Shown in pieces: positions 28,672 to 53,538 of a DNA stretch of 64,000 nucleotides; the stretch's first letter is position 1, and each line of letters opens with the position of its first letter. Both the position numbers and the translations under genes were made by a program. A model generated the notes under the pieces. That model saw nothing but the letters and a program-made list of their open reading frames with translations, made no database searches and was not told where the DNA came from. The stretch spans positions 29,252,527 through 29,316,526 of the forward strand of contig NC_030384.2 in NCBI RefSeq assembly GCF_001625215.2, given 5' to 3'. This DNA comes from Daucus carota subsp. sativus. Lineage: Eukaryota; Streptophyta; Magnoliopsida; Apiales; Apiaceae.

Positions 28672-29058
28672 ATCTGATAATCGAAGTAGCAGAATTTTAA
28701 TTATACACAAATTAATAGCTAAAATTTGAAGAACAAATCAACATAAACTACAAAAAATTCGCGTAATTTCAACTGTCGCTAATTTAGACGCATTCCGTCA
28801 AATTTAAAATTTGTAAAAAGTATTATGTCGAAATTAACAGTTTTTCTAATAGTAATAATTCTCAATTACACTATCTATATCAATTTTAACGCGAACAAGT
28901 GCACTCCGAAAATTAAAGTTGGAACTAATTAATCATATAAAAGTGCTTGTGTGTGTACGTGTAATTGGGTGTAGAATAAACCTTAAGAAGAAGCTGCTGT
29001 CTGGCAATAACCCGAGAGAAGAAGAAAAGCTGTTTTGTTGTGTATGTAATCGACAAAA

Positions 29059-29068
29059 TATATATAAG
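29059..29068 (-). promoter_or_regulatory. TATA box of eIF3i copy A
   Basis: In minus sense the sequence reads cttatatata. It lies about 390 bp upstream of the ATG. A leader exon of about 45 nt (near 28984-29030) ends in a CTTAAG|GTTT donor, followed by an intron to the ATG-proximal acceptor. Confidence 0.55.
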
Positions 29069-29520
29069 TTGCTTTGGGTTGCAAGTTCAATCACTTTTAT
29101 CGTTTGACATGTCGCACTGTTCATAACACAACACAAATTACAAACCCTAATTTATAATATCAAATATACTATATTGTTGAATTTGTATTTATGAGTATTT
29201 TAATACAATTAAATTTTTATATTTATCATTAATATAAAATTAAAGATATTAACGATTAAAATTGTACGTTGGCAAACGTGCTAAAGAGAAAAAGGAAAAG
29301 TATTACGGGACGGAGGCAGTCTTGTTTAGTCCGCATGAAATATTAAATTTTATTTAAAGAATAAAATGTAAATATCTAAAAACAATAATAATAAATTAAA
29401 AAATCTATTATGCTTGACACATATTTTAAATATATATAAAATTAATTTCATAAATCGTCTCTGAATTATCTTAAATAATTTATATCAATTTTACGATAAA
29501 AATTAAAATAATTTAAACTA

Positions 29521-30465: not shown

Positions 30466-30650
30466 TATTTTATAAAACTTGCAATCATTACGTCAGATTA
30501 ATTATTATATTGTTTGTGTATCGGATCAAAATTATCTAGATTATAAGCTACACCATTCCTTCAATTAACAATCTTTACACTACGGCACATGGTTAATTAA
30601 ATTTTTTTATCAAATCTTGACAGCCCATATTCCAAATTCAGCTCATTTTC

Positions 30651-30804
30651 ATGGTTATGCTCGGCCCAACTGTGTCTTTGTCGGTTTTAATCCGCGAAAA
30701 TTTTGGAAGTTGCCGGAGAATTGGAATACCGGCGATGAGAGAACTTCCGGTCGTTGGCGTAGGCACAGCTTTGATGAAGACAAGCAGGGCTGTTGTTATT
30801 TTGG
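30651..30804 (+). other. Conserved open segment of unknown function (unit A copy)
   Basis: A 51-codon open stretch (MVMLGPTVSLSVLIREN...) ending at a good donor-like site (ttttg|gtgagc). The unit B counterpart is at 41637-41790. Most differences between copies are silent in this frame, with two replacements (Val/Leu and Ile/Phe). The opposite strand is also open over the same bases (LRQLPKFSRIK) with mostly silent changes, so the coding strand is unclear. No family was recognised. It could be the first exon of an undetected gene, a last exon on the minus strand, or a transcribed leader. Confidence 0.25.
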
Positions 30805-30869
30805 TGAGCAAAGATTTTAAATGTCAATTTTTTTTTCATGATAAACTTGAGAAGCTGTATGCATTATAA

Positions 30870-32900: not shown

Positions 32901-33294
32901 CCGGCCCCCTGTTTTCATAAATACGGGAGTTTCTCTTTGATACGTGGCATTGTTATATTGGGCACATTACGTGTCCCTGGTATATTAGTCTTCATATGAG
33001 TTCCAGAGAGTTCATCCATAGAGTTATTAGAGAAGGCACCGAAGAAGAAGAGAATAAATTTGTGAGCAAGTGATAAGGGCGAATCATCATAACAAATCAA
33101 GTAAGTGTTGTGATTATGTTTCTATCTTGGAAGTGATGTTTTGTTGATGAAAATTTTCTGTTAAGTTTGATTGGATTACTGATCTGTTTGTTGTTGCAAT
33201 TATAGATTCCGTAATTCAATCTTGGTACACAATTTCGATTTAATTTTTAATGCTCATTAATTACTCTTTCCAATTATGTGATTGTATTATTAGA

Positions 33295-34403
33295 ATGAAG
33301 CCCGGGCCACTTAAGATCATCCTTTCAAAGAAGGGTTCGTCCTCTGAATGTGCAGGGGAGAAAATTCCTGGGACAGGGGAAAATGTCAGAGCAGCATGTC
33401 CCAGCCACCTCATCATATCTGATCTGTCGGTGGCGAAAGGCATTGGACATGCGTATGCTGCTGCACCTGTAAAGAAAGTTAAAGCCACTGTTCGCAGTGG
33501 TAACAAAGAAGGAGATAAAGTTCATATTTGTTTTAAATGCAACATACCGATTGCAATTTATGGTCGCCTGGTATAATTCCTTCCAACACTCCTTGTCTTC
33601 CTTTATTTGTTGCAAGCTCATTAATTTCCTGGAGTTTTATCCTTAGTACTCAAGATGTGAGTGTATAAATATATTATCCAATCAGGATAACACTTGGTCT
33701 GTTTATTTTGTATCTCACGACAAGTTTTTTTATAGATAGAACAATTAGCTTACCTTTGCCCAAAGGCTATAAACTCGAGTTCACTTCTCTACTTTTATCT
33801 CCCTACTAAATATTTTCATGCCATCTCTTTTTTGCATTTTAAATCTTCTTAAATCAATTCATATAGTGGGTTTTGATTTAGTTTCAGTCAATGTAAACCT
33901 GCAGATCTTTTGTCACTTGATATTGTTCAATCTGAACTTTTGATAGCAAACTACCATCCATTTTATTTGTATATGTTGCAGAGCCCCTGTGAACATGCTT
34001 TCTGCATGGACTGCGCCTTGGAAAGCAATTCTGAGTGCTACATGTAAGTTCAAATTAATGCACACATCTGTCATCTTGTACTGTATTTTGTTGCCTGAGT
34101 AGATCAATACATCTTATTAACAATGGAGATTATAGTTGTATAAACATCATAATTTTAGTATCAAAAAGTATGTTTTTCTGTTGTTACCCTGATAAAATCA
34201 TAAAGTTGAGCTATTTTTTTTGTTTGCTTAGTTGTGAAGCGCCGGTCAACAAAATCCAGAAGATTCATATGGGGAAAGGAAAGATGTTCATATGTGGCTG
34301 GATGAACTGCCTCAAGTCATTCTGCGAGTTCGATGCATTTAAGAGCCATACCGATGAAGTCCATGGTGGTAGTTCGAGCTCCGTCAAGAATGGTGGTAAC
34401 TGA
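33295..34403 (+). CDS. Short HAKAI-like RING/C2H2 E3 ubiquitin ligase (copy A)
   Basis: Three exons (33295..33570, 33982..34043, 34232..34403) give 169 aa. The N-terminal block ACPSHLIISDLSVAKGIG matches plant HAKAI. The RING is complete: C79-x2-C82, C95-x-H97, C100-x2-C103 and C111-x2-C114, around the HAKAI-specific IPIAIYGRL and PCEHAFC. A C2H2 finger follows at once (C134-x4-C139-x12-H152-x4-H157, ending DEVHG). This RING plus finger pair is the HYB fold of HAKAI, an E3 ligase and a member of the m6A RNA methyltransferase complex. Canonical plant HAKAI is about 360 aa with a long Pro/Gln-rich tail; this protein ends 12 residues after the finger. A non-coding first exon ends at 33100 (gtaagt donor), and the start is the ATG just after the acceptor. 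It differs from copy B by one residue. Confidence 0.88.
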
Positions 34404-34911
34404 GATCTGCATCTCTACAACCCATAAACAGACCCCTACCCAGGCCGACTGCAATTGAAAACGTTGCTGCTCTTTTCAGTTATCATGTTTTCTTTCTTGG
34501 ATTGTGTTTCTTTCCTTCTTTTGCGTTTCAGGCAAGACAATCGGATTTCTTGTTATTATGTTTCCAAATAATTACCGGATTTCCTTTTGAGTTATAATAC
34601 TCTTTGAAGACTGTTTTAGTCCTGGTGGATTATGTATGTTGGTAATAGATGTATGTGTGTAATATACTTTCAATCCATTTTGGAGATGAAAGTACTTTAC
34701 TTACTTTTCACTTGCTTTCCTCTCCTTTTAAAACCTCGGGAGCAGGGTAAGCGCCCTTCGTGTTTCAGATCTAGTATGAAGCAACTCTAGAATACAGACT
34801 ATTTAGTAGCGAAGCTGGTGCCTGTGCTAGAAAATTGTCGGGATTACATTTCCGGGCTAGGCAGATTACAGTGGAATGATTATTACAGTGTAGAATACAA
34901 ATGTATAATAG
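34404..34911. other. Spacer between the convergent HAKAI-like gene and GRAS pseudogene, unit A
   Basis: Contains the HAKAI-like 3' UTR. A MITE half-motif (tcacttgctttcctctcc, then cctcgggagcagggt) lies at about 34708-34750. Confidence 0.45.
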
Positions 34912-35642
34912 TCATTGTTGGACAGGTTTCCACAAGGAGAGAGCATAGATAACTCTTCCATTCCATCCCTGCAACATCCAATTGTTGTCTTCACGAACGA
35001 GAAACTTTTTGTTGTATTGCAGCCTAACCTTTCTTTGTACTTCAGCCAGGATCTCTCTTGGCAAAGGTGTCTGCATAAAACCAGCCTTCGTGATTCGGGA
35101 TGTCAACCGCTGGTAGCCTCGTACTTCTCAGGCCTCTCGACCCTGGCTGTTCCTTCGCAGGCTATTACGGTTATCGTGTCTTTTGCCAGCATCATCTGTT
35201 CTATAACCAATCTGCTTTTATCTTCATGGGGTAAAGTAGCCTCAAACATGTCTGAGACTCTGAGGTTGGAGAAATGAGCTAAAGCATCTCAGAACCGCGC
35301 TTTAAAGAAGGCAGAATTGTAACTGCCGTTGAGTACTCCAAGGACCAGTAGCTCAGGATTTATTCTCTTGATTAATTAGTTTCAATACCACGTCTTGTGG
35401 ACCGCTTTCTAGGGCTGTCTCATCAGGCACTTGCCTTGGCTTGTACAAACAATTGACAACCAGCCTTTCACCTTCGACGATCTTTAAATCTTCTAGCTGA
35501 ATGGAATCCCATTTCTTAGCAATGCAGTTGTACTCGAATGGGATGTTGAATCTCTTGCAATAGTCACTTAAACAAGTCCCTGTCTTTGCCACCCTCTTTG
35601 ATGGCAGAAAACCAGGTTCTGGAAAATCAATTCCTGTGATGC
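34912..35642 (-). pseudogene. GRAS (LISCL-type) pseudogene, 5'-truncated, unit A
   Basis: Homologous to the last 240 or so codons of the intact GRAS gene at 45867-49100. Recognisable parts are ITGIDFPEPGFLPSKRVAKT, FEYNCIAKKWDSIQLEDLK and the C-terminal GWNGRVIYALSLWKP. The 5' part is missing because the duplication junction falls at 35642. Compared with the intact copy it has a 4-nt insertion near 35371 (gattaattag) and an extra 8 nt near 35110-35125, both shifting the frame, plus small changes near 35230-35275. It is therefore not expected to make a GRAS protein. Confidence 0.88.
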
Positions 35643-35645
35643 TTA

Positions 35646-36600
35646 GTCCGTTCTTGAAACACATGATTTTCAGCTATATATTTTGCAGACAGAATATCAC
35701 AAAACAAATCAATAGGAGTAGGAATTGAAACCAGTAAATCGTCAAACAAACCATGTAACCATATGACTATATGAGAACCTAGAGGAATAACTCATAATGT
35801 GATACTCAGCTTCGCAAGTACTATTTGACGTTTTTTGTTTCTTTGTTTTCCATGAAATTAACGAATTGCCAAGAAAAACTGCATAACCACTAAGAGATTT
35901 AGCTGTAAAACTCTTCCCCCGTCCATGTCACAGTAGCCCTTCAAAATGTGATCATTATCAGCGGAATAAAAAAGACCTTAGTTGATGGTACCACTGAGAT
36001 ATCAGAGAACATGTTGAGCAGCTTCCAGATAAAATTGTGCAGGAGATCGTAGAAATTGACTAAGTTGTTGGACAGAGTATGATATCAGGCCTTGTCATAT
36101 TCAAGTAAAGCAACTTTCCAACAAGTCTCCTATAGATTTCTGGGTTGGGATAGATTTTGGGGAAAGGGGGAAGAAGTCACCGTGCAATCTTGTACAGATG
36201 TATCTTTTAAAAGATTAATGATATATTTTCTTTGGTTTGGTAATATACCAGAAGAGTTCCTCCAAACTTCAATACCCAGAAAGTATTTTAATGGTCCAAG
36301 ATCCTTGATCGTAAAAATTGTACTAATAAAATGTTTGACAGCTCCAATGCTTGATAAGGAATTACCTGCAACCAGAAAATCATCAACATAAGCCGAGACC
36401 ACTGTAAAAGTACCATAAGGATCAGCTTTAGTGAACATAGAATAATCTTGCTTGGATTGCACAAAACCAAGGTGAAGTATATGTTTAGTCAGCTCTTTAT
36501 TCCACTGTCTAGCTGCTACACCCTAGCAGCTTGTCTCAGACCATATATTGATCTTTTCAGTTTATACATTAAACCAGGTTGAGCTTTACTATATCAAGGA
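35646..36600 (-). mobile_element. Ty1/copia fossil at the duplication junction (RT and RNase H parts)
   Basis: A broken copia remnant on the minus strand. The reverse transcriptase part is recognisable at 36130-36462 (AYVDDFLVAGNS, LGPLKYFLGIEV), and an RNase H piece shared with 26865-27000 lies next to the junction. It retains a stretch lost from the sister remnant in unit A. No LTRs were found. Confidence 0.75.
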
Positions 36601-37529
36601 GGAGGAAGCATGTAAATATCTTCATCAATAAAGCCATGCAAGAAGGCATTATTGATATCTAACTGGTGCAATTCCCAGTTCTTTGCTGCAGACACATGAA
36701 TTTCGGAACAGAAAGTGAATGCAACAGAACAACAAAATTTGGCTCTGTAAGATTTATGAATATACAGAGACTGCTAGTATAGCTACCCAGTGAAGCATCA
36801 GTTTTTAATCCAATTCAACACAATTAAATAAGAGAAATAAAGTCAAAAAAATTGTAATCACACAGAAGAACAAAACACTATAATCAGAAATTACTAATAA
36901 ACACTCTAAAGTTGTTGATTGTGTGAGATACCTGAGGAAAGAAAGCAGATCCGTTAGGGAACAACTAAGAAATGTCCTTGTGGCTGATACCAAAGAAAGT
37001 GGTCTTCTTCCAGATTTATTCATTAGTACTGCTCCAATCATAGTTATCAGAATGTGTTACAGTTTTTGTAGAATAATTGCTTTGACACAATAAGATTGGC
37101 CTGATATTATATTTGTAACAAGTGTCTGATCCCGGAACTAATATCAGACAAGAATATCGTGACAAACACAACTATCTACAAGGATATAATGCCCAGATTA
37201 AATGTTGCATCTAAAACTGTAATTTATTTATGTATCACGTTCATATCATATCTACCCAGTGTTCCAAGATTACCTGATGAATATTTTTAATATTAGCATT
37301 TAGTATATAGGTATTATAGTTAACATTTAACATTCAGTATATATTCAGGATCTCATAGCATTTACTTTGATTAAACTACATGAAAAGATAAAAACCTATG
37401 TAAATAGTTTTAAAATGCAACCACACTTTTGTTTATAACAAGGAACATAACGTCAACATATAAACCAGAAAATAACTCGACTAAAACCGGAAAAAAAAAA
37501 GACGTAGCAACCTAACTAAGTAACTCGAT
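36601..37529. other. Spacer downstream of eIF3i copy B
   Basis: Partly shared with 27360-27690 (tgaatttcggaacagaaagtgaatg in pieces). Mostly AT-rich and without a gene. A few bases at the left belong to the copia remnant. Confidence 0.4.
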
Positions 37530-38507
37530 TCAAATTGCTATGTGGAAGTAGTCATGATCAAGGTGATGTAATCGCACATAACCATCTTCACCTCCACTTG
37601 CGAAACTTTTTCCATCAGGGTTGAAAGCCAATGCATTTATCGGACCAAAGTGTCCTTTCACAGATCCAATTTCTTCTCCAAGGACCTTATGATAAAATTT
37701 GGCCTCAAACTTGCCAGCACGAGGATCATTTGTAACACTCGATGCATCCTGACCACCTCCAAGCACGACATGATCAAGTAGTGGAGAGAGTGTGACTGCA
37801 TTAACCGGGGTTTCAGCCTTATATGTCCTGACAAGTCTCATTGATCTGATATCCCAAAGCTTAGCTGATTCGTCGATGGAACCAGTAAGTAAACATGAAC
37901 CATCTATTGATTTTGTAAGTGATGTAACAGCCTTCTGATGACCAGTCTCCTTATCCGACTCATAAATCACTTTCTTCGTCTCAACGTCCCACACACGAAC
38001 AACACCTTCTTCACCACCACTTATTATCGTCCTATTCAACGGCCCCCAAACAGCTCTATTACTTCTCCCTCCAAGCTGTGCCAATTCAATCACAGAATCA
38101 CCGCACTGCTCACTAGGCTCTCCCACAATTTCTTTCACATGAATCGCAGAAGACATTTCACCAAAGGAGTCTGTTGCAATAACAGCAAGCTTATCTCCAA
38201 CACTAAATTCAACTGATTTCACAGTAGACCTAAATTCAAACGTAAACAGCTCAGACCCCGTTTGAACATCCCATAGCTTCGCTGTTCGATCCGCACTTGC
38301 GGTTATCAAAAGTTTCGAATCCCGACTAACATCACAACCCCAGACAGCCCCATTGTGGCCACGGTAAGTGCCTAAAAGCTCTCCATTATCCGCATACCAA
38401 ACAGCGGGGTTTCTGTCTAATGCGCAGGAGAAGAGGAGATCACCCTCCTTGTTATACTTCAAATACGTTAATGGCCTTTCGTGCCCTTTCATCAAGATCG
38501 GCCTCAT
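37530..38507 (-). CDS. EIF3I: Eukaryotic translation initiation factor 3 subunit i (copy B)
   Basis: A single coding exon, 325 aa, same start and length as copy A, seven WD40 blades, no interruption. Replacements relative to A are scattered and mostly conservative or on loops: AGEP/VGEP, CGDT/CGDS, VVHVWD/VVRVWD, KSRDG/KSIDG, DQSAK/DESAK, EAPV/ETPV, SHVTN/SSVTN and YFNIAI/YFHIAI. None hits an obvious blade-defining WD. Both copies therefore look functional at protein level. The promoter side differs sharply: a hAT element separates the TATA box from the rest of the leader (see 38895-39712). Confidence 0.94.
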   Translation of the reverse strand: MRPILMKGHERPLTYLKYNKEGDLLFSCALDRNPAVWYADNGELLGTYRGHNGAVWGCDVSRDSKLLITASADRTAKLWDVQTGSELFTFEFRSTVKSVEFSVGDKLAVIATDSFGEMSSAIHVKEIVGEPSEQCGDSVIELAQLGGRSNRAVWGPLNRTIISGGEEGVVRVWDVETKKVIYESDKETGHQKAVTSLTKSIDGSCLLTGSIDESAKLWDIRSMRLVRTYKAETPVNAVTLSPLLDHVVLGGGQDASSVTNDPRAGKFEAKFYHKVLGEEIGSVKGHFGPINALAFNPDGKSFASGGEDGYVRLHHLDHDYFHIAI

Positions 38508-38894
38508 ATTTCCTGACAATCGATATAGCAGAATTTTGATTATACACAAATTAATAGCTAAAATTTGAAGAACAAATCAACATGCACTACAAAGAACTCA
38601 GCGTAATTTCAACTTTTCAATAGTCACTAATTTCAACAGTATTCCATCGAATTTAACTTCTGCCAAAAATATTCTTTCAAAATTAACGATTTTTCTAGCA
38701 GTGATGATCATCAATCACAATATCTACATCAAATTTAAACAAGAACAAAGTGCACTCGAAAATTAACGTTTTTAATATTCGAAAATCGAACCTGATAAAA
38801 TCGAATTAATTAACCATATAAAAGTACCTGTGTGTACGTTTGATTGAGTGTAGAATAAACCTTAATTGAAGAAGAAGCTGCACTGTGTGATAAC

Positions 38895-39712
38895 TAGGGG
38901 TGTGCACGGGTCGGTTCGGTTCGGTTTTTAGCTAAAACCGTTACCGAACCGTACATATCGATTCGGTTCGGTTTCTATCTTAAAACCGTTACCGAACCGT
39001 CTCAAACGGTTTTTTTCGGTTCGGTTAACCGTCGATTTTTTCGGTTAACCGTCGGTTATTTTTGTGAGCAAGAGACAAAAATAAGGTATAATCACTAATT
39101 AAATATTATTCATTAGTACGTATTTTACCAAAATAAATAAAAAAGAAAATATTTAAAATATAAATACTTATTAATATAATCGAAATGAAGTACATGAGCA
39201 CTATTACGGTATGTAAAGATGATCTAGAAATGTAAAGTATGAATCAGCCCAGTGTTTTTTTTTTTTAAGGAAACGAACTTGCATTACTTAGAAATTATCA
39301 GAATTCAGTACAAGGCTTAGTTACACAGTATCTCTTTATGAAAATGATATTAATTAGTAACTACTCTACTACTCTCTCTCTACTTAAATATAACAAACTG
39401 CTGTAACTTGCTGACTTGTAACTATAGTTGAGGTGGATAGTTCCTTACTTAGCAGATAATATATCAATAATACCAATGTAATAATTTATTTTATATAAAA
39501 TATATAATATATAATAAATTATATAATATTATATAAGCGGTTCGGTTTTTCGGTTCGGTTTTAGGTGTAAAACCGTAACCGTTGGTTCGGTTAACCGTCG
39601 GTTCGGTTGAGCTACGGTTTTTTTCGGTTTTTGTCGGTTTCGGTTTTTTTCGGTGTGGTTTTTCGGTTTTTCGGCTCGGTTTCGGTTTTTCGGTTTTTTT
39701 TGCTCACCCCTA
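38895..39712. mobile_element. Non-autonomous hAT element in the 5' leader of eIF3i copy B
   Basis: An exact 8-bp duplication GTGATAAC flanks it (38887-38894 and 39713-39720). Terminal inverted repeats are TAGGGGTG and CACCCCTA, continuing imperfectly as tgca. Both ends are packed with cggttcggtt-type subterminal repeats, probable transposase-binding sites. The centre is AT-rich without coding sequence. Unit A has an empty site at 29005-29015 (ggcaataacc). Confidence 0.88.
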
Positions 39713-39760
39713 GTGATAACCCTAGAGAAGAAACTGTTTTGTTGTGTATTTAATCGTCAA

Positions 39761-39770
39761 TATATATAAG
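39761..39770 (-). promoter_or_regulatory. Original TATA box of eIF3i copy B, displaced by a transposon
   Basis: The stretch cttatatata (minus sense) matches the TATA box at 29059-29068 in unit A. It is now about 1.25 kb from the start codon because of the hAT insertion. Confidence 0.5.
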
Positions 39771-40109
39771 TTAGCTTTCGATTACTAGTCTAATTAGGTT
39801 AATGATAATATTTGCAAATTCAAATCCCGTTCTGTTTGTAAATTCAGATGTCACTAAATTTTATGGAAACCCTAAATTAAAATCTCTTCGAAATATAAAA
39901 TTTTTATTTAATTGAAAAAATAAAATATTTAATAATAAATATGACAAAATTAAAAAAATTATTATATTTAACACATATTTTAATTATATATAGTGTATAA
40001 TTTTATAACTCAGGTCTAAATTATCCTAAAAAACTTTTAAAAGTTAAGTAATTTTTATAAGAAAAAATTTAAATAATCTATTTGAATTATACTTTGCAAG
40101 GCTTGCAAC

Positions 40110-40998
40110 TAGGGGAGAATATGGGCCGGTTCGGCTCGGTTTCCGGGTGAAACCGGAACCGCAACCATATATCTTCGGTTTTTAAAATCGAAAACCGCAA
40201 CCATGGGTATGGATTCGATTTCGGTTTCGGTTTAATAAACCCCGGTTCGGTTGTAATCGGCTCGGTTTCGGTTATAAAATCGATAAATAAAAGAATAAAA
40301 AACAATATACAAACGAGACAAACTAATGCGTGTAATCTAGACATAATAATAAATACAACTTGAACATGGTCAAAGAAAAATAGTGCAATGAATTTCATGC
40401 TGATAGTAGAACTCTTTCGAAGCAGATAATAGATATCCTTTTCTTTTCCAAATGTTTTAACACTTCTTTACCTTCCAAAGGAAGGAGTTGCTTAAAATCA
40501 ATTAAAACTTCAGAAAGCAGGTGTCTGTAACTACTTAATAACAAATGGCAGCAACAGATTAGCTCACTATACCAAGTATTTTGAAGAAAAAAAAGGGCAG
40601 CATTAACGGTATATTGGAACCAGCAGAAAGCATTGAATATCCTGCTTGGTTTCAACTTTAAGTTCATCTGTAAATCAAACAGGTCACATTGACAGCAGCC
40701 AGAATATGTTTTTCTTAAATTCTAACATTAATATAACTATCAACACAATGAAAATAGTTATTTCTTTCTCTGGAATTATTTTTAAATTCATATAAATATA
40801 TATTATATTTATTTATTAAAATAATCGGTTCGGTTCAGATTTTTCCGGTTCGGTTTTAATCAATAACCAGAACCGAACCCATAACACCGGTTCGGTTTTT
40901 CATTTTTCGGTTTCGGTTTCGGATCGATTTTTTTCGGCTTGGTTTTCACCGGTTTCGGTTCGTTTACGGTTTTTTTTTTGTTTTTTTGCTCAGCCCTG
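40110..40998. mobile_element. Second non-autonomous hAT element, unit B only
   Basis: An exact 8-bp duplication CTTGCAAC flanks it (40102-40109 and 40999-41006). The ends are TAGGGGAGAATA and, reversed, CAGGGCTGAGCA, related to the element at 38895-39712 but more diverged. It carries the same ggttcggtt subterminal repeats. A central 90-codon frame on the minus strand (40395-40667) resembles nothing I know. The matching empty site in A is at about 30478 (aacttgcaatc). Confidence 0.85.
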
Positions 40999-41080
40999 CT
41001 TGCAACCATACAATCATTTACGTCAGATTAATTATTAACTATTATAATATTTCTATGTATCGGATCCAAATATTATTTTA

Positions 41081-41525
41081 GGGGTCGTTTGATTGGAGGG
41101 GAGTATGGGGTTTAAATGAGGAATCGACTTGAGGTGGTATGAGATTGATGTATCATTTTTAATATCATGTGTTTTGTTAAGTGCTGGAATGAATATATCT
41201 AATATAAATATTTTTAAGTGATTAATTATAATTAATTTAAAAATATTCTTGAAATAATTTTTTTATATATCTTTGAGTCATCAACTTAATTTGGTAATAT
41301 CATTTTGAATTTGATGACATAAATAAAAATAAAAAATAAGACAATCAAAATTGATTTCTCAAATCTATGTTTCATACCCACCTCCTCCTCTGAGTATGAA
41401 AATCTCATACATTGTAGGTTTGAGGCATGGATTTGAAGGGAAAAAAAATCTAACCAAACATTAGGTATGCGTATGTAATGAACGAAAATCATAGCTGATA
41501 CCAGACCCGTGAACCGAACGACCTG
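41081..41525. mobile_element. PIF/Harbinger-type MITE, unit B only
   Basis: It is flanked by TTA at 41078-41080 and 41526-41528. The ends are GGGGTCGTTTGATTGG and, reversed, CAGGTCGTTCGGTTCA. A 3-bp TTA duplication with GGTCGTTTG-like ends fits Harbinger elements. It is 445 bp long, non-coding, and absent from the matching point in unit A near 30535. Confidence 0.75.
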
Positions 41526-41636
41526 TTAGAACTCTATCAAAAAAAAAATAAATTATCTGTTAGAAGCTCCACCATTTCTTCAATTAACAACTTTGACAAA
41601 TATAAAGTTAATCAAATTTTGATACAGCTCATTTTC

Positions 41637-41790
41637 ATGGTTATGCTCGGCCCAACTGTGTCTTTGTCGCTTTTAATTCGCGAGAATTTCGGAAGTTGCC
41701 GGAGGTTTGGAATACCGGCGATGAGAGAACTTCCGGTCGTCGGCGTAGGCACAGCTTTAATGAAGACAAGCAGGGCTGTTGTTATTTTGG
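41637..41790 (+). other. Conserved open segment of unknown function (unit B copy)
   Basis: Counterpart of 30651-30804 (MVMLGPTVSLSLLIREN...), ending at the same donor-like ttttg|gtgagc. The same uncertainty over strand and function applies. Confidence 0.25.
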
Positions 41791-41829
41791 TGAGCAAAGA
41801 TTTTAAATATCAATTTTCTTTTTCATGAT

Positions 41830-43860
41830 ACTCATGAGTAGCTGTATGCATTATAATTCTTTGTGTAATTCTTGTGTAATCTTGAAACCCATTTTGAGTG
41901 GACTTGATTATGTAATAAGGTAAAAGATTAATTTTTCTTTATCAATATGAGTAAGATGTCTTACGAATTAGTATATGTTCTAATAAATCTCGGCTATTAT
42001 GTGTTTGAATGAATTAAATCCCGGGATGAGCAAGAGTGAACAAATGACTTGGGACGACAGGGGATAAGCCTTGCGATGTTACAAGTCATTCATTGTGATA
42101 AACAAAACCGAGGACATTAAGATTCCCCGTTAGGTTTTCATTTTACTTAGTACTTTTGTGCCTGTAACATTTGATTTAACGAGCGTATTGTATAGCTGTT
42201 TAGTCAGGGTGCCGAGAAACTGCATGCTCTTATATGTATACAGCCATACAGGGTGCCGAGAAAGTGCATGTTCTTATATGTATATGTTATTCGTACAGAG
42301 GTTACTTAAATCATTTGCCAACCTATATAAACATAGTCCGGTTTATGCTCTTTAAGGACCTGAACTGATGTCATAACCATTGCGCAAGAATACTGGCTAT
42401 ATATATTTTACCTATAGGTACTATGCATAACTGACTGAATTGTATCTCTGTAGAAAGTAGTGTTATGATTTTGGGTTTTGGGATGCGTCGGGATGATTTA
42501 GGGTTTAGGTGTGTTTCAGGATTTGAGATGTGTTGCTTTTAAGGCTTTTGGTGTTATCAATAATGATATAAGAGTTGATGTTCTTATACGAGAAAATATC
42601 ATAGCCAAAGGACTAATAAGTATTTTTGAATCCACCAGAAAATGAAGGGAAAACTCTGAAAGGTTTTATTTTAATAAAAGATTGTCTTATAAGATTTCAA
42701 GATATGAGTATTTATAGACTAGGGAAATAGTCTAAACTCAAGAGGAATCTGAAAGAAATTCAGGACCAACTAGAATAGAAAATTAGCTAATATCTAAACC
42801 CATCTAGGAACCTATCGAAACCCCAATCTGATAATTAAAACCTTTTACCGCTTATAATGTTGATAATTCTTAGCTCATGCATCACATTTGGTTCCTAAAT
42901 AGTTATGGTCTGTACTACTCTATAGTTGCATCTTTATTTTATCTTTTGTAAATACTTGCCTCTTTTTACTTGTGCCCTACATGTGTTACATTGTTAGCTT
43001 TACTTGATTGTTGCTGTGTATCATGTGTGCCTCCGTGCTGGTCGGGCTTTATTTAAACTTATGCTTTCATTTATTTGGTTTTTCGAGTTTTAAGTTTGCT
43101 TTGAAAACAATGATTGTGTTTTGTTCCATACTTCAAGTATGTTTCTATAAGCATAACGGGTGCTTCCTAATCTGAAAATTCACTAATGGTGTTCTGTATT
43201 GTGTTAGAACTATAATTTGTAACGAGCTGATGTTTGAGAGAGTTCATATATTTAAATTTTTTATGAACGGTGAAATATGTGTCTGCACTTCTTACCAAAC
43301 ATATATTTAGCATTCAACCACCAGAGGTTGGAAAGATTTATTATATATTAACAGCAATTAATTAAGTTTTAATTGAACTAGAAATATTTAATTTAGAATA
43401 AATAGAGTATGACTATATAACGTACAACATGATTAATGGTTCAAGTGAATTTCGCAGTTGCAGTTCAGAATCCTCTTTAGATTTAGGCTGTTATATGGAG
43501 AAGAATTAAAATATTAGAAACTATTTTATGCCTTTTCAGGGATCGGAGATTCTGCAGATAAATTTAAATGTCATTTTCTTTATTTTATTTCAAAATGAGG
43601 CCATTCTAATTTTCTTTGTTTTAATAAATAAAGGACGCAGAAAATCAGTCCCCTAAATTGCCTCTAAATACGGGCTCCAAGCGAGTTCACTCTTGCACGT
43701 CCCGTTAGCCGGGCCTGGGCGTGTTGCATTTGATGCTGCAACAGCTTCCTGGTGAGCTAAAGTTGCCATCTTTACTGTCTTTGGAACTATACCCTAAAAT
43801 GCTCTCTACGGTTTTGGAGTTTAGCAGTTAAATGGTACGAGAAAACCGACTACCCGGCCC
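41830..43860. other. Upstream region of the HAKAI-like gene, copy B
   Basis: Aligns with 30870-32900. A local duplication near 42200-42285 repeats agggtgccgagaaa-tgcatg. No gene was recognised. Confidence 0.4.
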
Positions 43861-44247
43861 CCTGTTTTCATAAATACGGGAGTTTCTCTTTGTTACGTGG
43901 CATTGTTATATTGGGCACATTACGTGTCACTGGTATATTAGTCTTCATATGAGTTCCAGAGAGTTCGTCCATAGAGTTATTAGAGAAGGCACCGAAGAAG
44001 AAGAGAATAAATTTGTGAGCAAGTGATAAGGGCGAATCATCATAACAAATCAAGTAAGTGTTGTGATTATGTTTCTATCTTGGAAGTGATGTTTTGTTGA
44101 TGAAAATATTCTGTTAAGTTTGATTGGATTACTGATCTGTTTGTTGTTGCAATTATAGATTCCGTAATTCAATCTTGGTACACAATTTCGATTTAATTTT
44201 TAATGCTCATTAATTACTCTTTCCAATTATGTGATTGTATTATTAGA

Positions 44248-45355
44248 ATGAAGCCGGGGCCACTTAAGATCATCCTTTCAAAGAAGGGTTCGTCCTCTGA
44301 ATGTGCAGGGGAGAAAATTCCTGGGACAGGGGAAAATGTCAGAGCAGCATGTCCCAGCCACCTCATCATATCTGATCTGTCGGTGGCGAAAGGCATTGGA
44401 CATGCGTATGCTGCTGCACCTGTAAAGAAAGTTAAAGCCACTGTTCGCAGTGGTAACAAAGAAGGAGATAAAGTTCATATTTGTTTTAAATGCAACATAC
44501 CGATTGCAATTTATGGTCGCCTGGTATAATTCCTTCCAACACTCCTTGTCTTCCTTTATTTGTTGCAAGCTCATTAATTTCCTGGAGTTTTATCCTTAGT
44601 ACTCAAGATGTGAGTGTATAAATATATTATCCAATCAGGATAACACTTGGTCTGTTTATTTTGTATCTCATGACAAGTTTTTTTATAGATAGAACAATTA
44701 GCTTATCTTTGCCTAAAGGCTATAACTCGAGTTCACTTCTCTACTTTTATCTCCCCACTAAATATTTTCATGCCATCTGTTTTTTGCGTTTTAAATCTTC
44801 TTAAATCAATTCATATAGTGGGTTTTGATTTAGTTTCAGTCAATGTAAACCTTCAGATCTTTTGTCACTTAATATTGATCAATCTGAACTTTTGATAGCA
44901 AACTACCATCCATTTTATTTGTATTTGTTGCAGAGCCCCTGTGAACATGCTTTCTGCATGGACTGCGCCTTGGAAAGCAATTCTGAGTGCTACATGTAAG
45001 CTCAAATTAATGCACACATCTGTCATCTTGTACTGTATTTTGTTGCCTGAGTAGATCAATACATCTTATTAACAATGGAGATTATAGTTGTATAAACATC
45101 ATAATTTTAGTATCAAAAAGTATGTTCTTCTGTTGTTACCCTGATAAAATCATAAAGATAAGCTATTTTTTTTGTTTGCTTAGTTGTGAAGCGCCGGTCA
45201 ACAAAATCCAGAAGATTCATATGGGGAAAGGAAAGATGTTCATATGTGGCTGGATGAACTGCCTCAAGTCATTCTGCGAGTTTGATGCATTTAAGAGCCA
45301 TACCGATGAAGTCCATGGTGGTAGTTCGAGCTCTGTCAGGAATGGCGGTAACTGA
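44248..45355 (+). CDS. Short HAKAI-like RING/C2H2 E3 ubiquitin ligase (copy B)
   Basis: Three exons (44248..44523, 44934..44995, 45184..45355), 169 aa, same splice sites as copy A. The complete RING (Cys79 to Cys114) and C2H2 finger (Cys134 to His157) are kept. The only protein difference from A is Lys165 to Arg in the tail (SSSVRNGGN). The first coding exon differs by one silent base, and the upstream leader exon and intron are almost identical, much closer than flanking DNA, pointing to selection or gene conversion. Like copy A it lacks the long Pro/Gln-rich C-terminal tail of canonical HAKAI. It converges on the intact GRAS gene 512 bp away. Confidence 0.88.
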
Positions 45356-45866
45356 GATCTGCATCTCTACAACCCATAAACAGACCCCTATCCAGGCCGA
45401 CTGCAAATGAAAACGTTGCTGCTCTTTTCAGTTATCATGTTTTCTTTTCTTCCTTGGATTTGTGTTTCTTTCCTTCTATTGCGTTTCAGGCAAGACGATC
45501 GGATTTCTTGTTATTATGTTTCCAAATAATTACTGGATTTCCTTTTGAGTTATAATACTCTTTGAAGACTGTTTTAGTCCTGGTGGATTATGTGTGTTGG
45601 TAATAATGTATGTGTGTAATATACTTTCACTCCATTTTGGAGGTGAAAGTACTTTACTTACTTTTCACTAGCTTTCCTCTCATTTTAAACTCGTGAGCTG
45701 GGTGTAAGCGCCCTTTGTGTTTCAGATCTAGTACGAAGCAACTCTAGAATACAGACTATATAGTAGCGAAGCTGGTGCCTGTGCTAGAAAAACGTCGGGA
45801 TTACATTTCCGGGCTAGGCAGATTACAGTGGAATGATTATTACATTGTAAAATACAAATGTAATGG
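45356..45866. other. Spacer between the convergent HAKAI-like gene and GRAS gene, unit B
   Basis: 3' UTRs of both genes. A MITE half-motif (tcactagctttcctctca, then ctcgtgagctggg) lies at about 45665-45705. Confidence 0.4.
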
Positions 45867-48800
45867 TCATTGTTGGACAGGTTTCCACAAGGAGAGAGCA
45901 TAGATAACTCTTCCATTCCATCCCTGCAACATCCAATTGTTGTCTTCACGAACGAGAAACTTTTTGTTGTATTGCAGCCTAACCTTTCCTTGTACTTCAG
46001 CCAGGATCTCTCTTGGCAAAGGTGTCTGCATAAAACCAGCCTTCATGATCCTGGATGTCCACCGCTCGTACTTCTCCGGCCTCTCTACCCTTGCTGTTCC
46101 TTCGCAGGCTATGACGTTTATCGCGTCTTTTGCCAGCATTATCTGTTCTATAATCAATCTGCTTTTATCTTCATGAGCTAAAGTAGCCTCAAACATGTCC
46201 GAGAGGTTTGAGAAATGAGCTAAAGCATCTCGGAACCGTGCTTTAAAGAAGGCAGAATTGTAACTGCCGTTAAGTACCCCAAGGACCAGCAGCTCAGGAT
46301 TTATTCTCTTGATTAGTTTCAATACCACGTTTCGTGGACCACTTTCTAGAGCTGTCTCATCAGGCACTTGCCTTAACTTGTACAGACAATTGACGACCAG
46401 CCTTTCACCTTCGACGATCTTTAAATCTTCTAGCTGAATGGAATCCCATTTCTTCGCAATGCAGTTATACTCGAATGGGATGTTGAATCTCTTGCAATAG
46501 TCACTTAAACAAGTCCCTGTCTTTGCCACCCTCTTTGATGGCAGAAAACCAGGTTCTGGAAAATCAATTCCTGTGATGCGAAGATAAGGTGACCCGCCTG
46601 GTCTTACTGAAAATGCCTGGATGATACATGGCCATTGAAATCCATATGAAATGCCGAAATCAATAATGTGAAGCTTTGTTGCTCCCATGGTCTGTCTGTA
46701 GATAGCCTTGTTGGCGAATATGTTTGACATTCTCTGAAACGGGACTGCAGTAAAATACGACTGATAAGCTTTTAGCGTATCAGCAAATGATATTCCCATC
46801 ATACAACTATCTGCATATAGTGTTGTCCCGGTTCCATGTATTCGTGCCTCAATAGCAGTAGCAATGTAGTGTGCCAATCTCTGTGTTCCATCTCCGTGTG
46901 GTGAAGACTGGCTTCGAATTGTGCCAAGAGTTTGTTCAGCAGCCAAAATATCGCCATTTGATGCTGATGATGCACATTGAGTTAGAAGCCTTTTTAAGTC
47001 CACCAGTTGCCTTCTCTTGTCTTGAGGCTTCCTGCCTCTTGATACTTGCAGCACAGACTCCTTGGTTTGCCAAGTAGTATTGTAATCAGGGCAAAGTGAG
47101 ACCTTGTCTAACATGTCTGACAGGTCATCAATTTCTTCTTCAGAGGTTCTTGCCAATTGCTTGTTACTCTGTGTTTCTGGAAGGCAGTCATTAGTAGTAC
47201 TTAATTCTTCATGATGATGCTTCTTCCCCTTTGAAGCATTGTTGCTTGATGAGGCTGAAGAGGGTGAACTAGGGGGTACAAAATTATTCAAATAACATGA
47301 ATTAGTGGGAGAGGATTGTGGTTCACCTGGATTATGTATCTGATTGGATTCCGCCACATTTTCCAATGCAACAGTTGTGGTACTGTTAATGCAATTTTTA
47401 TGATAAGTACCGAGAGGATCATCAGTATTGACGTTTTGTTCCAGATTTTCATTCAAGGACTTCTCGGGAGCCTGGAATACTGACTCCTGCAACATGGACA
47501 CAAATTGATCATCTTCCATGAGCATTTGGATCAGATGATCAATATTGTTGCTTGAAGAGGCTGATGAGTGTGGATTAGGAGGAACAAAATCATTTGAATG
47601 ATGTGAATTAGTGGGAGAGGTTTGTGGTTCACCTGGATTTGGTATTTGATTGGATTCTATCACATTTTCTAATGCAGCTATAGAGGTGCTGTTAATGAAT
47701 TCTTCATGGTAAGTACCAATAGGATCATCAGAACTGACGTTTTGTTCCAGAATTTCAGAGGACTTCTCGGGAGCCTGGATAGCTGACTCATGGAACGTGG
47801 GCACATCTGGATCATCGTCCATGAGCATTGGGACAAGCGGATCAACATTGTTGCTTAAAGAGGCTGATGAGTGTGGATTAGGTAGAGTAAAATCATTTAA
47901 ATGATGTGAATTAGTGAGAGAGGTTTGTGGTTCACCTGGATTGGGTATATGACTGGATTCCATCATATTTTCGAATGCAACAGTAGTATTACTGTTAATG
48001 CACTTCTTTTGGTAAGTATAAATAGGATCATCAGAATTGATGTTTTGTACCAGAATTTCAGACAAGAACTTCTCGGGAGCCTGGATAGCTGATTCTTGGA
48101 ACATGGACACATTTTGATAATCTTTCATGAGCATTTGGACAAGAAGATCAACATTGTTGCTTGATGAGGCTGATGATTGTGGAATAGATGGAACAAAATC
48201 ATTTAAATGATCTGAATTAGTGGGAGAGGTTTGCGGTTCACCTGGATTTGGTATTTGACTGGATTCCACCACATTTTCTGGTGCAACTGTTGAAGTACTG
48301 TTAATGAATTCCTCATTGTAAGTACCCATAGTATCATCAGAACTGGCGTTTTGCTCATACAAGGACTTCTCGGGAGCCTGGATAGCTGACTCAGGGAGCT
48401 CGGGCACGTATTGTTCATCTTCCATGAGCATTTGGACAAGAGAATCAACATTGTTGCTTGAAGAGGCTGATGAGTGTGGGTTAGGTGGAGCAAAATCATT
48501 TAAATGATGTGAATTAATGAGGGAGGTTTGTGGTCCACCTGGACCTGGTATTTGACTGGATTCCACCATGTTTTCCAACTCAACAGTAGTAGTACTGTTA
48601 AGGCACTTTTTATGGTAAGTACAAAAAGGATCATCAGAACGGACCTTATCTTCATACAAGGACTTCTCGGGGACCTGGATAGCTGACTCATGGAACACAG
48701 ACAAATATTGATCATCTTCCATGGGCATTTGGACAAGACGATCAATATTGTTGCTTGAAGAGGCTGATGAGTGTGGAATAGATGGAACAAAATCATTTAA

Positions 48801-49100
48801 ATGATCTGAATCAGTGGGAGAGGTTTGCGTTTTACCTGGATTTGGTATTTGACTGGATTCCACCACATTTTCTGGTGCAACTCTTGAAGTACTGTTGATG
48901 AACTCTTCATGGCAAGTACCAACAGGATCATTATGTGGAGAATCACGGGAAGGGACCTTTCCATCTAGGACTTCATAAAAGGACTTCTCGGTAGCCTGGA
49001 TAGCAGACTCAGGGAACATGGGCACCTCTTGATTCTCTTCCATGAGAATTTGGTATATGTACATATGAACACTTTGAAAGTAGTCCCCTTCCAGCGACAT
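45867..49100 (-). CDS. GRAS transcription regulator, LISCL/SCL14-type, with six-fold repeated N terminus
   Basis: A single open frame of 1,077 aa, much longer than usual LISCL proteins (about 650-800 aa). The GRAS domain covers about residues 700-1077: leucine heptad I (VDLKRLLTQCASSAS), VHIID-type LHIIDFGISYGFQWP, the PFYRE region (LVVNCLY, FFKARFRDALAHFSNLSDMFE) and the SAW end (GWNGRVIYALSLWKP). GRAS-LISCL proteins are nuclear co-activators; SCL14 works with TGA factors in detoxification responses. Residues 20-621 are six repeats of about 100 aa, each opening with a form of M-E-D-D-Q...F-x-E-S-A-I-Q-A-P-E-K-S-L-Y-E. In other LISCL proteins this motif occurs once, in the activation region. 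The ATG at 49100 is chosen because the frame is open from it, with a TATA-like tatatata at about 49266-49275. Its 3' part is duplicated at 34912-35642. Confidence 0.93.
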   Translation of the reverse strand: MSLEGDYFQSVHMYIYQILMEENQEVPMFPESAIQATEKSFYEVLDGKVPSRDSPHNDPVGTCHEEFINSTSRVAPENVVESSQIPNPGKTQTSPTDSDHLNDFVPSIPHSSASSSNNIDRLVQMPMEDDQYLSVFHESAIQVPEKSLYEDKVRSDDPFCTYHKKCLNSTTTVELENMVESSQIPGPGGPQTSLINSHHLNDFAPPNPHSSASSSNNVDSLVQMLMEDEQYVPELPESAIQAPEKSLYEQNASSDDTMGTYNEEFINSTSTVAPENVVESSQIPNPGEPQTSPTNSDHLNDFVPSIPQSSASSSNNVDLLVQMLMKDYQNVSMFQESAIQAPEKFLSEILVQNINSDDPIYTYQKKCINSNTTVAFENMMESSHIPNPGEPQTSLTNSHHLNDFTLPNPHSSASLSNNVDPLVPMLMDDDPDVPTFHESAIQAPEKSSEILEQNVSSDDPIGTYHEEFINSTSIAALENVIESNQIPNPGEPQTSPTNSHHSNDFVPPNPHSSASSSNNIDHLIQMLMEDDQFVSMLQESVFQAPEKSLNENLEQNVNTDDPLGTYHKNCINSTTTVALENVAESNQIHNPGEPQSSPTNSCYLNNFVPPSSPSSASSSNNASKGKKHHHEELSTTNDCLPETQSNKQLARTSEEEIDDLSDMLDKVSLCPDYNTTWQTKESVLQVSRGRKPQDKRRQLVDLKRLLTQCASSASNGDILAAEQTLGTIRSQSSPHGDGTQRLAHYIATAIEARIHGTGTTLYADSCMMGISFADTLKAYQSYFTAVPFQRMSNIFANKAIYRQTMGATKLHIIDFGISYGFQWPCIIQAFSVRPGGSPYLRITGIDFPEPGFLPSKRVAKTGTCLSDYCKRFNIPFEYNCIAKKWDSIQLEDLKIVEGERLVVNCLYKLRQVPDETALESGPRNVVLKLIKRINPELLVLGVLNGSYNSAFFKARFRDALAHFSNLSDMFEATLAHEDKSRLIIEQIMLAKDAINVIACEGTARVERPEKYERWTSRIMKAGFMQTPLPREILAEVQGKVRLQYNKKFLVREDNNWMLQGWNGRVIYALSLWKPVQQ
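47238..49043 (-). repeat. Six in-frame coding repeats with a two-unit higher-order pattern
   Basis: Repeats start at 49043, 48722, 48425, 48128, 47822 and 47519 (residues 20, 127, 226, 325, 427, 528), with lengths 107, 99, 99, 102, 101 and about 94 aa. Repeats 1, 3 and 5 carry EEFINSTS. Repeats 2, 4 and 6 carry K(K/N)C(I/L)NSxTTV. This alternation implies that a dimer of about 200 aa was amplified after an initial duplication. Confidence 0.9.
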
Positions 49101-49275: not shown

Positions 49276-51708
49276 GCAAACAATGTATAGGTCAAGAAAT
49301 TTGCTAATAAAATAAAATATTTTATTACTGATATTTTACTCTCAGCTACATGTAATAAGGTCTAGATTCACTGCACAAGATGAATCTGTCATTTCTGCCA
49401 GATGCATGTGTGGGGCAAATTAGCTTACCATGTTGACCGGAACGAAAATCACAATGGTCCTGGATAATGAGAATTGTTCACTGTGTATTTACCGAAAGTT
49501 CATGTGATCTTATTACAGAGTGCAGACAGCAAAACAAATTTTGGGAGGATGTGAATATTATATGATAAACCAAAAAAATATCCTCTCGGATACTGATATG
49601 AAGGTAGTTTTGATGGGGTTCGTGTCCTTATACGGAGTCTTAGTGTTGAAGAACTTATGATAGGAACAGGCATGTAGCTGCTGAATAGGTTTATATTATT
49701 TTAGTTTCGAATTGCAGCAAAAAAAATAATTGGAGATATGCTTTCCAGTAATTATGTACCTACTGTTAGGATTCTGATGAAGAAATACTGTTTACTTATC
49801 CTATTAATGACGGATAATTTGCTTAAGAATTATATTTGCCACTGGTGAGAAGTTATTTTGTGTAAATGTATATGTAAAGATATGTCCTTGCAGAGTGATA
49901 TATTGTTTTTCAGTATATACATATAATAGTGCAAATTCTGGTTCCCGTCTGCAATGGTTTTTGCATTTTTAGTAGTCCCGAATGTTATAATTTCAATTAG
50001 TCCTTATCAAAGTAGCCGTGTCCCTGTGTCAATACCCTAGATAACTCTGACCTCATAAATGTCACAGTTTGTTTAATTGAAGCAGTGATGTAGATGTGTA
50101 GCTTTTGATGAAATCTTGTACTAATATTCTGTGTTAGGTTAAGCATGAAAAGCGAAACCACATAACAATACCAGGTGGTATAGATATATGCACTTTGTGT
50201 GTTACTCTCAGCTGCAAGTAACGAGGCAGGCGGTTTCATCAGGTTTTAGACTTTTAGTTGTCTTCTGCTGATCAGAGACTGAAAAGACCTTGTATTTGCA
50301 TGATCACTCCGTATATGAATGTCTCTGTATGTACTATTTTTGGTGGCTAGCAGACAGGCATGTGCCTGCGATATGTAAACTGAAGACAGATGATGAAATT
50401 TATGGTTGTCGTCGATCCTTATTCATTGTAGTACAGTAGTACTCTAAGTTGAAGGCAAAGACCACAGTGATTCTATCCTTTGTTTTAGGACTTGAAGGAT
50501 TATTTTGAGTGAAATGTATGGGGACTAACTTTGAAATTTGTTCATAACAGCTATTACTGTCAGCTACAAGTAACAAGGTCTGGATTATCAGAAAAAACAG
50601 AATTTGTCATTTCTGCAAAATGCATAGGTGGGAATGAGAAAATAAATCTACTTGCTTGCCATCTTGATCAATCCATGAAAATATTAATTATGCAGTCAAG
50701 AAAAATCTCTCTGACAGTAATATCAAGGAGATGAAAGTAGTGCTGGATTTGTGTCCTTAGAGTTTTAACATCAAAGAAATTACATTAGAATTACAAGCAA
50801 GCATGATGTAGGAGAATTCTTAGTGTGTATTGAGGATTAACGCTTGCCTTTTATTTGCTTCCATATGACGTCAGAGTAGCTGGTGATTAGGTTTTTATTT
50901 AATTTCACAATATTGCAGCAAAGTATAATGAAAAACATACCTGCATGAAAAACAGCCCAAGGTATCTTTGTGCTCATATGACATTTAGTTATTCAGTTGT
51001 TTAGGGTCAGATTCTGATATTATTGTGATTAGATTAAGCATGAAAAGTGAAACAAGGGTAGTAAAATAGCACATGATATCTGCAGGTACATGAAAATTCA
51101 TATTTGTTTGTTACTTTCAGATACTAGTAACGAGCAGAACTAATTGATCGATAAATCTTTTGGTGGCTGCCTGTGAAGACCTCTTATATTGTCGATGCTC
51201 ATCCTTTGTACTAGACTACGAGTACTTTCGAGTCCAGGAGAAGACAAGAAATGACAGGGCATGAAATTCATGGTTGTCGATGTTATCCATTATAGTACTC
51301 GTCAAGTCGAATGAAAACAACAGCAAACAGGCGCGTAGTCTGAGAAAAAAAACCAGTAGTCATTTTAAAATGCACTATTATCCACCTTGTGCAGTGTATA
51401 AAACCAGACCACAATAATTCTGTGCTTAGTTTTAGGACTTAATGGATCATTTTGAGTGCAATGTGTAGGACTCATTTTGAAGAATCTTGCAGTACAGCTG
51501 TTTCTGTCAGCTAAGAGTTGAGAGAGCAGAATTTGTCATTTTTGTTTTGAAGAAAAATCCTCTCTGACAGAATCCTCTACTGAGTCTTAGCGTCGAAGAA
51601 ACTATAATAGAAGTACAGGCATGTAGCTGGTGAATACGTCTGTCATTTAAAATTTTACTTTGAACAGTAAACATTCTTAGAATTAGAATAGCTTACATCC
51701 TTGTCAAA

Positions 51709-51955
51709 GTATCTGTAATCCGATGTTAGGAATAAAATACAACGTTCCCTTCTAATTAATGCAGATGATCACACTCAAAATATATAAAACGCTGAAATCT
51801 ACGAGGAATTCACTCAAGGACACCATTAATATATCTGTATTCCGATGTTAGGAATAAAACACATAACCTTCTAACACAGATGATCACACTCAAAAAAAAT
51901 ATATAATGTTGAAATTAAATTCACTAGAAATTCACTTAAGGACACCATCAAAGTA
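51709..51955. repeat. Two tandem copies of about 125 bp
   Basis: Both copies contain ccgatgttaggaataaaa, cagatgatcacactcaaaa and ttcactNaaggacaccat. They lie inside the third unit of the larger block. Confidence 0.65.
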
Positions 51956-51989
51956 TATGCATCGTGATTTCTTCGGACATTTAGTGTTG

Positions 51990-52440
51990 TAGGGTTTGAA
52001 AGCTTAAACCATAGCTACATAACACAGGATTCGATTCGAAACGGGGAACGAAATCAGATACGCGGAACATTAGTATTAGTGAATCCGGTACGACGGAACG
52101 TATGTGTACGATTAATCCTTCTAAAAAGAATTCTATAATCATATATGTTCCATTATAATATACAATTTTAGTTGATAATTTATACATTTATAATTTTTTT
52201 AAGGAAAAAGATATTGAATAACAAATAGAAGTACACATTTATTGATAAAATAAACTACTTATCATATGACATAGACATGGATTTATTGTTCAGAACAAGA
52301 ATGAAGTGTGTTCTTGCTGGTCGTCACTTCCGGCGATTTGGGTTGTGACCCCGAACGTTTCCGTTCGCGTTCGCTCCCGTATCGGATACGAATAATCTGG
52401 ATAGCGGTACATGGCACCTTATAACTATGGCTTAAACAGT
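51990..52440. mobile_element. MITE-like element with short inverted ends
   Basis: The left end (cttaaaccatagctacataa) and the reversed right end (gtttaagccatagttataag) match imperfectly, and inward ggatacgaataatc and attcgattcg also echo each other. No certain target-site duplication was seen. Confidence 0.4.
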
Positions 52441-52775
52441 GTACTAGCTGGATTAAGCATGAAAAAGTGGTACCAGGGTGGTAAACTAAAATAGCACTAG
52501 TACTCTATTAGCACACAATAATGTCTGCTGCAGGTTGCATTTTGTTTGTTACTGTGAGCTACAAGTAACGAGGTCAGGGGGAATCAAATAAGATTATAGA
52601 TCCTTTTGTTTTCTTCTGGTGACCGCCTGATCAAAAGACCTGCAGAATCATGCATGCGTTTATACATTAGAGTGTGTGTTGTGGCGGTTGCATAACACTT
52701 AGACCTCCAGGCTTCAATACTTACAATGATACTTACAATGATCATGAAATTTAGACTTTTCCATCCTTATTCTTT

Positions 52776-52884
52776 TTTATACATAGTTTTAATTGAATTC
52801 GAGTAATTCGAAACAGAGAGTAGTATAAAGTTTATACTACTCTCTGTTTCAAATTACTCGAATTCAATTAAAACTATGTATAAA
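52776..52884. repeat. Near-perfect 109-bp palindrome
   Basis: Arms 52776-52829 and 52831-52884 are reverse complements with about one mismatch (ttcgaaacagag against ctctgtttcaaa) and a single-base spacer. The centre (actactctctgtttc) resembles Stowaway-type ends placed head to head. Its transcript would form a long hairpin. Confidence 0.8.
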
Positions 52885-53538
52885 AGTCAAAAATATAGTA
52901 TTCTTTCTTTTGCCAAAGTACACGCTTTTTGAGTCGAGGAGAACACCAAAAAAAAAAAAAAAACAGAAAACCTCAATAATTTGACTTTTTCTTTGCCACA
53001 ATAATTTGACATGTTTAGAATAATTAATTTATAAATCTATCATCATTAAATTAACCTATATTTTCTGATGGATTTCATTTACTTATAGCTTCATGTGTAG
53101 ATTTTGAAAAAGAAAACCTAAAAGTAGGAGTTACTAAAATTTAAGGTTTGTTAAAATTTATTGATTTAGTAAAATCTAAATAATACACTTAAAATGTAAA
53201 TACTAATTAATTAATAGTATCTCTTTATATCTCATTTTCATCAAAAATTATAGCTATTAATATTAAATGTAATATCTTATTTAAATTTAAGTTCTCAAAT
53301 ATCAAGTTAAAATTCTGGGTCTAATTTTGATATCATAAACTAAAAGATGAATACTAGTTTTTAAAAAATTAATTTTGTAGTTGTGATTATATAAATAAAT
53401 AAATTTTAAAAAAATTATTGCAAAATGAGAGCAATTTTTTAATATGACTGTGACCCTCACAAAAAAATATTTGATCATCTGTATATTTCGCTAGCAGTAA
53501 AAGTAATAAGAGATATGCTCTTGACGGTGATAATACTT

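Follow-up and report, generated by a model that had tools for sequence, protein, structure and literature searches.

The stretch of carrot DNA analysed here, called the window in what follows, is 64,000 nucleotides long and carries on its minus strand a GRAS gene (45867-49100), a single ORF of 1077 codons that encodes 1077 amino acids without an internal stop. A TATA-like stretch begins 174 bases upstream of the ATG. The C-terminal residues 702-1073 (45882-46997, minus strand) form the complete GRAS domain that the first-pass annotation had placed behind a repeat array: they match PF03514 over its whole length (model 1-374 of 374, E-value of 1e-104), with a score of 350.9 bits against the Pfam cut-off of 27, which makes the protein a member of the GRAS family. 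The signature sequences LHIID, RVER and ALSLW are found at positions 810, 1004 and 1068, respectively, and, with a threshold of E ≤ 0.001, the domain has matches to 15 distinct sequences of solved structures, named as a rice GRAS protein (PDB ID 5hyz), DELLA, SCL3, SCARECROW, SHORT-ROOT, NSP1, and NSP2. As the quoted size of GRAS proteins is 360-850 amino acids (PMC5332381), the 1077-residue protein is unusually long. To note, a Pfam DUF384 match at residues 216-230 lies below its cut-off (20.9 vs 24.6 bits) and was disregarded.

N-terminal to the GRAS domain, residues 15-621 are made of six head-to-tail, in-frame units of 99 to 107 amino acids, close to the residues 20-621 between which a six-fold, in-frame repetition of the motif block had been announced. 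Unit 1 (48738-49058; residues 15-121, 107 amino acids) is the longest and the nearest to published motifs. It is followed, always on the minus strand, by units 2 (48441-48737; residues 122-220, 99 amino acids), 3 (48144-48440; 221-319, 99 amino acids), 4 (47838-48143; 320-421, 102 amino acids), 5 (47535-47837; 422-522, 101 amino acids), and 6 (47238-47534; 523-621, 99 amino acids). The repeated block of ~100 residues comprises one LISCL motif and an acidic linker of ~70-80 residues, rich in Ser, Pro and Asn, and each unit is net acidic (charge -7 to -16). Tandem Repeats Finder returns a period of 297, 5.6 copies, 81% matches and a score of 2113, and the anchor [AVF][IF]Q[AV][TP]EK occurs six times in frame in the ORF. 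The repeat alignment that had been proposed as a check gives a nucleotide identity of 75.4-87.4% and a protein identity of 55-75% over all 15 unit pairs; in the four pairs compared with 300 shuffles each, the alignment score stands at Z = 24-33. The gaps between units in a frame-blind DNA alignment are of 3, 9 and 15 bases, all multiples of three, and the start-to-start spacings (297-321) are all divisible by three. Two short ORFs (48203-48499 and 48500-48796) fall within the array, in a different frame of the coding strand, and were taken as shadows of the repeats. The motif quoted by the first-pass annotation, with MEE and FYE, is exact in unit 1 and in no other; its fuller pattern A-I-Q-A...E-K-S-F-Y-E presumably agrees with LISCL proteins. 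The EEFINSTS ascribed to the odd repeats is found unchanged in all three of them (units 1, 3, and 5), while the KKCINSTTTV ascribed to the even ones is found unchanged in none, being represented by the near-forms KKCLNSTTTV (unit 2), KKCINSNTTV (unit 4), and KNCINSTTTV (unit 6).

The N-terminal motifs published for LISCL proteins are YISRMLM, FDKVLL, LMEED, FFYQYP, and ANKFLP (PMC6683515). A YISRMLM counterpart, YIYQILM, opens unit 1 (residues 14-20; 49041-49061, minus strand), with a score of 20/34 and a best-in-unit shuffle P of 0.0005. The next best is HLIQMLM in unit 6 (P 0.0065), followed by units 3 and 4 (P 0.05 each), 5 (P 0.16), and 2 (P 0.66): clearest in unit 1, this motif is mostly lost in five of the six units. 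The LMEED site occupies the same place in the units and reads LMEEN, PMEDD, LMEDE, LMKDY, LMDDD, and LMEDD from unit 1 to unit 6. Its single-site P is below 0.001 in five units and 0.014 in the degenerate unit 4, with best-in-unit P values of 0.001, 0.0525, 0.0165, 0.26, 0.0045, and 0.0005 in the same order. Over YISRMLM and LMEED together, unit 1 is the best fit to the published motifs; for LMEED alone, it is unit 6. The FDKVLL counterpart, LDKVSL (residues 664-669; 47094-47111, minus strand), is outside the repeated block and occurs once, after the array (score 17/29, shuffle P of 0.0048 in residues 622-701). The weak ANKFLP/KFLP counterparts at unit ends, SNDFVP, LNDFVP, and LNNFVP (P 0.016-0.04), are a lead only.

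Other subfamily motifs gave no match. FFYQYP was not found in residues 1-701 (best score 11/38, P 0.87), and PMC6683515 does not claim it for every LISCL member. Of the motifs from PMC6448559, the 28-residue KFLP motif 13 is unmatched in the protein (P 0.34 and 0.20) and motif 15, from Brassica juncea, was not found by ungapped comparison (best 21/100, P 0.18). The DELLA motif (motif 14 of the same source) reaches at best 19/135 (P 0.24). Relatives were sought in non-plant collections only: two pattern matches to the GRAS domain in viral contigs and 46 in genome contigs yielded no confirmed relative, the array had no match in viral contigs, and the whole protein had none in plasmids by tblastn. 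By its N-terminal motifs the gene lies near LISCL; membership of this subfamily is likely, not proven, since FFYQYP, motif 13 and motif 15 were not found and the comparison was with non-plant sequences.

The first-pass annotation held that a dimer had been amplified, a view that stands in part. Among the 105 topologies, the best one has the odd/even split (lnL -1181.5), and units 2, 4, and 6 group with a bootstrap of 97% in the full-length unit tree. However, the best topology without the split (lnL -1190.3) is not rejected by the AU test (p 0.147), and 12 of the 105 topologies survive at 0.05, seven of which carry the split. Moreover, the signal is limited to about 14 codons. Six of the 26 two-state informative sites favour 1,3,5 against 2,4,6, and five of these six are confined to 27 bases; five other sites favour 1,3 against the rest, four favour 2,4 against the rest, and 11 favour other splits. 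When codon columns 50-63 are removed, the preference is gone (lnL of -988.64 with the split and -988.68 without), and the second part of the units pairs as 1-3, 2-4, and 5-6 (bootstraps of 75, 93, and 70), the first part giving no resolved grouping. A 9-base gap common to units 2 and 3 also conflicts with the odd/even split. With a local signal and a contradictory gap, dimer amplification is unproven as the entire account. Taken together, these results suggest that a two-unit exchange probably made units 1-2 and 3-4 alike, the remaining history being a mosaic.

A tandem segmental duplication covers 26863-46579, its left half (~26863-35642) resembling its right half (35640-46579). At the junction (35640-35642) the GRAS gene is cut, which leaves a 3' remnant, a truncated copy from about codon 840 onward (34915-35642, minus strand) that is devoid of any part of the array and has indels of 4, 6, and 8 bases. 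Over 710 aligned bases, this remnant shows 32 differences from the gene (4.5%), and the adjoining 3' DNA shows 83 over 3004 (2.8%); in the seven aligned pieces of the duplication together, 327 of 6970 columns are mismatched (4.7%), a few pieces being far more diverged (32/151). Taking this divergence as a yardstick, the synonymous distances between units, 0.145-0.396, suggest that the array is probably older than the segmental duplication and has escaped homogenisation. Each half of the duplication also holds an eIF3i gene on the minus strand (27694-28737 and 37530-38576), with Pfam EIF3I E-values of 2e-120 and 2e-119 and uninterrupted ORFs of ~347 codons each; the pair possibly stems from an old retrocopy. 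On the 5' side of the GRAS gene, 49336-52622 contains diverged direct repeats (62-121 bp, 69-82% identity, offsets of ~0.9-2.3 kb), as if this region had been duplicated too. These repeats have no significant similarity to the coding sequence that would identify them as decayed extra units.

The dN/dS comparison between repeats, proposed with the original claim, was run as pN/pS and gave 0.79 (codon bootstrap 0.59-1.11, summed over 15 non-independent pairs), pointing to near-neutral drift of the peptide. As this interval takes in 1, positive selection on the repeats is unsupported. The ratio is 1.13 in the LMEED part and 1.91 in a 19-codon variable linker, the latter value resting on few synonymous changes. 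The array contains no stop codon, against ~5.2 expected under drift when 164 terminal-branch substitutions are placed randomly in 5000 runs (P 0.0044). A second simulation of drift (95 gap-free columns, 2000 simulations) yields 130.9 ± 5.3 amino-acid changes against the 121 observed, which are thus slightly few (P 0.044). Simulated drift also gives a less negative net charge per unit (-8.0 ± 1.1) than the -10.3 observed (P 0.013), and more hydrophobic residues outside the motif, 15.0 ± 0.7 instead of 12.7, a value as low being reached in none of the 2000 simulations. The motif part fits drift in its number of changes (39 observed, 39.8 simulated; P 0.49), its charge (P 0.17) and its hydrophobics (P 0.32), and the replacements score no better than random ones on BLOSUM (mean of -0.41 in both, P 0.49). 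Since the simulation starts from the majority codon and excludes stops, and since several statistics were examined, P values near 0.01 are suggestive only. These deviations suggest that selection may hold an acidic, soluble and disordered composition rather than a peptide sequence.

What the array does was approached by analogy with LISCL activators. In rice OsGRAS23, a LISCL protein, the first conserved N-terminal motif, NI, strongly trans-activates in yeast, while the second, NII, is not the main activator and the GRAS domain has no obvious activity, a pattern said to resemble that of LlSCL (PMC4465154). NI would be the equivalent of LMEED. Work on Brachypodium ties YISRMLM to activation through acidic and hydrophobic residues (PMC6683515), and SCL14 is an interaction partner of TGA2 and TGA5 (cited in PMC6053526). 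Because OsGRAS23 trans-activation maps to the first N-terminal motif, an activation role of the repeated block is plausible. An AlphaFold2 prediction of units 3 and 4 returned no fold (pLDDT 43.6), which, with five alignment rows, is weak evidence of disorder. By this analogy, the array is probably an acidic, disordered arm of ~600 residues, a multiplied activation region. Taken as a whole, we give an even chance to the reading in which a LISCL-type regulator, similar to SCL14/SCL9, had its N-terminal region multiplied six-fold by in-frame unequal exchange and thereby gained a disordered, multivalent activation arm. An acidic-hydrophobic LMEED motif with its polar linker would have grown to six copies through successive exchanges of this kind. 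The arm would present several weak activation motifs together to the transcription machinery and, by analogy, may contact co-activators in a multivalent manner, while the GRAS domain would attach to partners that are themselves bound to DNA, in the way that SCL14 attaches to TGA factors. A further step, in which the arm is modular, its unit number shifts by unequal exchange between the ~300-bp units and so sets the strength of the regulator, with selection acting on composition instead of sequence, is doubtful.

The alternative with the best standing is that unit 1 alone is active, the other five being a disordered linker grown by slippage and unequal exchange; we consider this a serious possibility, though not the favoured one. 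Under this view, the linker would be retained only for being open, soluble and acidic, and would matter little to activity. The pN/pS interval, the neutral rate of change in the motif part and the randomness of the replacements all fit such a spacer, as does the position of unit 1 as the closest to YISRMLM and LMEED combined, and nothing indicates that units 2-6 were retained as activation motifs (P 0.49 for motif changes, pN/pS 1.13). It is this lack of conservation of the motif copies beyond drift that keeps the spacer not far behind the activation arm. Against it, acidity and low hydrophobicity are maintained beyond drift, and an LMEED-like sequence is recognisable in most units, the best being in unit 6. 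It is improbable that the locus is heading to a pseudogene with the array as drifting debris. The near-neutral pN/pS and the truncated, frameshifted copy nearby would fit such a decay; however, all 1077 codons are open, the GRAS domain is complete and the array lacks the stops that drift predicts. Furthermore, only gaps of 3, 9 and 15 bases occur in the array at 13-25% divergence, against indels of 4, 6 and 8 bases in the partial copy, which is 4.5% diverged. Finally, copy-number errors are known in tandem arrays, but an assembly artefact in which mis-joined reads inflated the repeat number is very improbable here, as every unit pair differs at 12.6-24.6% of aligned bases and no two units can thus be one sequence assembled twice.

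The activation arm, the reading that we prefer, can be set beside known systems. The LISCL activators rice OsGRAS23, lily LlSCL, and Arabidopsis SCL14/SCL9 resemble the carrot protein by their C-terminal GRAS domain preceded by YISRMLM/LMEED and FDKVLL counterparts. To our knowledge, the LISCL motif block is usually present once per protein, whereas it is six-fold here; the carrot gene also differs in that neither FFYQYP nor the long KFLP motif was found. In rice OsGRAS43 and OsGRAS53, too, one GRAS domain is accompanied by internal repeats, but with two RPT1 each according to SMART instead of six units, their place and sequence being absent from the main text of the source (PMC8660974). In the same source, rice OsGRAS39 and pseudogenes are GRAS proteins similarly enlarged by internal duplication, yet it is the GRAS domain that is doubled in them, while the N-terminal block alone is multiplied in carrot. 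A literature search covering titles and abstract openings, with sequence databases and most subscription papers outside its scope, revealed neither an amplification of the LISCL motif in any GRAS protein nor a six-fold block. Internal repeats in single-domain GRAS proteins are therefore already known from OsGRAS43/53, while the six-fold block appears to be new.

VP64 is a synthetic, multimerised acidic activator. With several tandem acidic activation motifs in one regulator, it offers a possible working parallel, in principle only, as it is unrelated in sequence. If strength does follow repeat number, the carrot gene would be a natural counterpart of such engineered activators. If the array activates, it would provide a natural series for the scaling of activation with the number of acidic motifs per protein, and would raise the question of whether, in a disordered activation region, selection targets composition and not sequence. 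It would also mean that the GRAS N-terminal region, usually considered merely variable, is able to grow by units.

Several other features were observed in the window. A near-perfect palindrome of 111 bp (97%) at 52775-52885 is perhaps a foldback element, and an inverted repeat at 11727-12587 aligns to its reverse complement at 77% across 876 columns. Low-complexity tandem repeats, TATAT and CGGTTTT-rich, lie at 39491-39698, within the right half of the segmental duplication. An acid phosphatase exon (Pfam Acid_phosphat_B) is located at 19463-19930 on the plus strand, and a gene of the NPH3 family at 21210-23239 on the minus strand.
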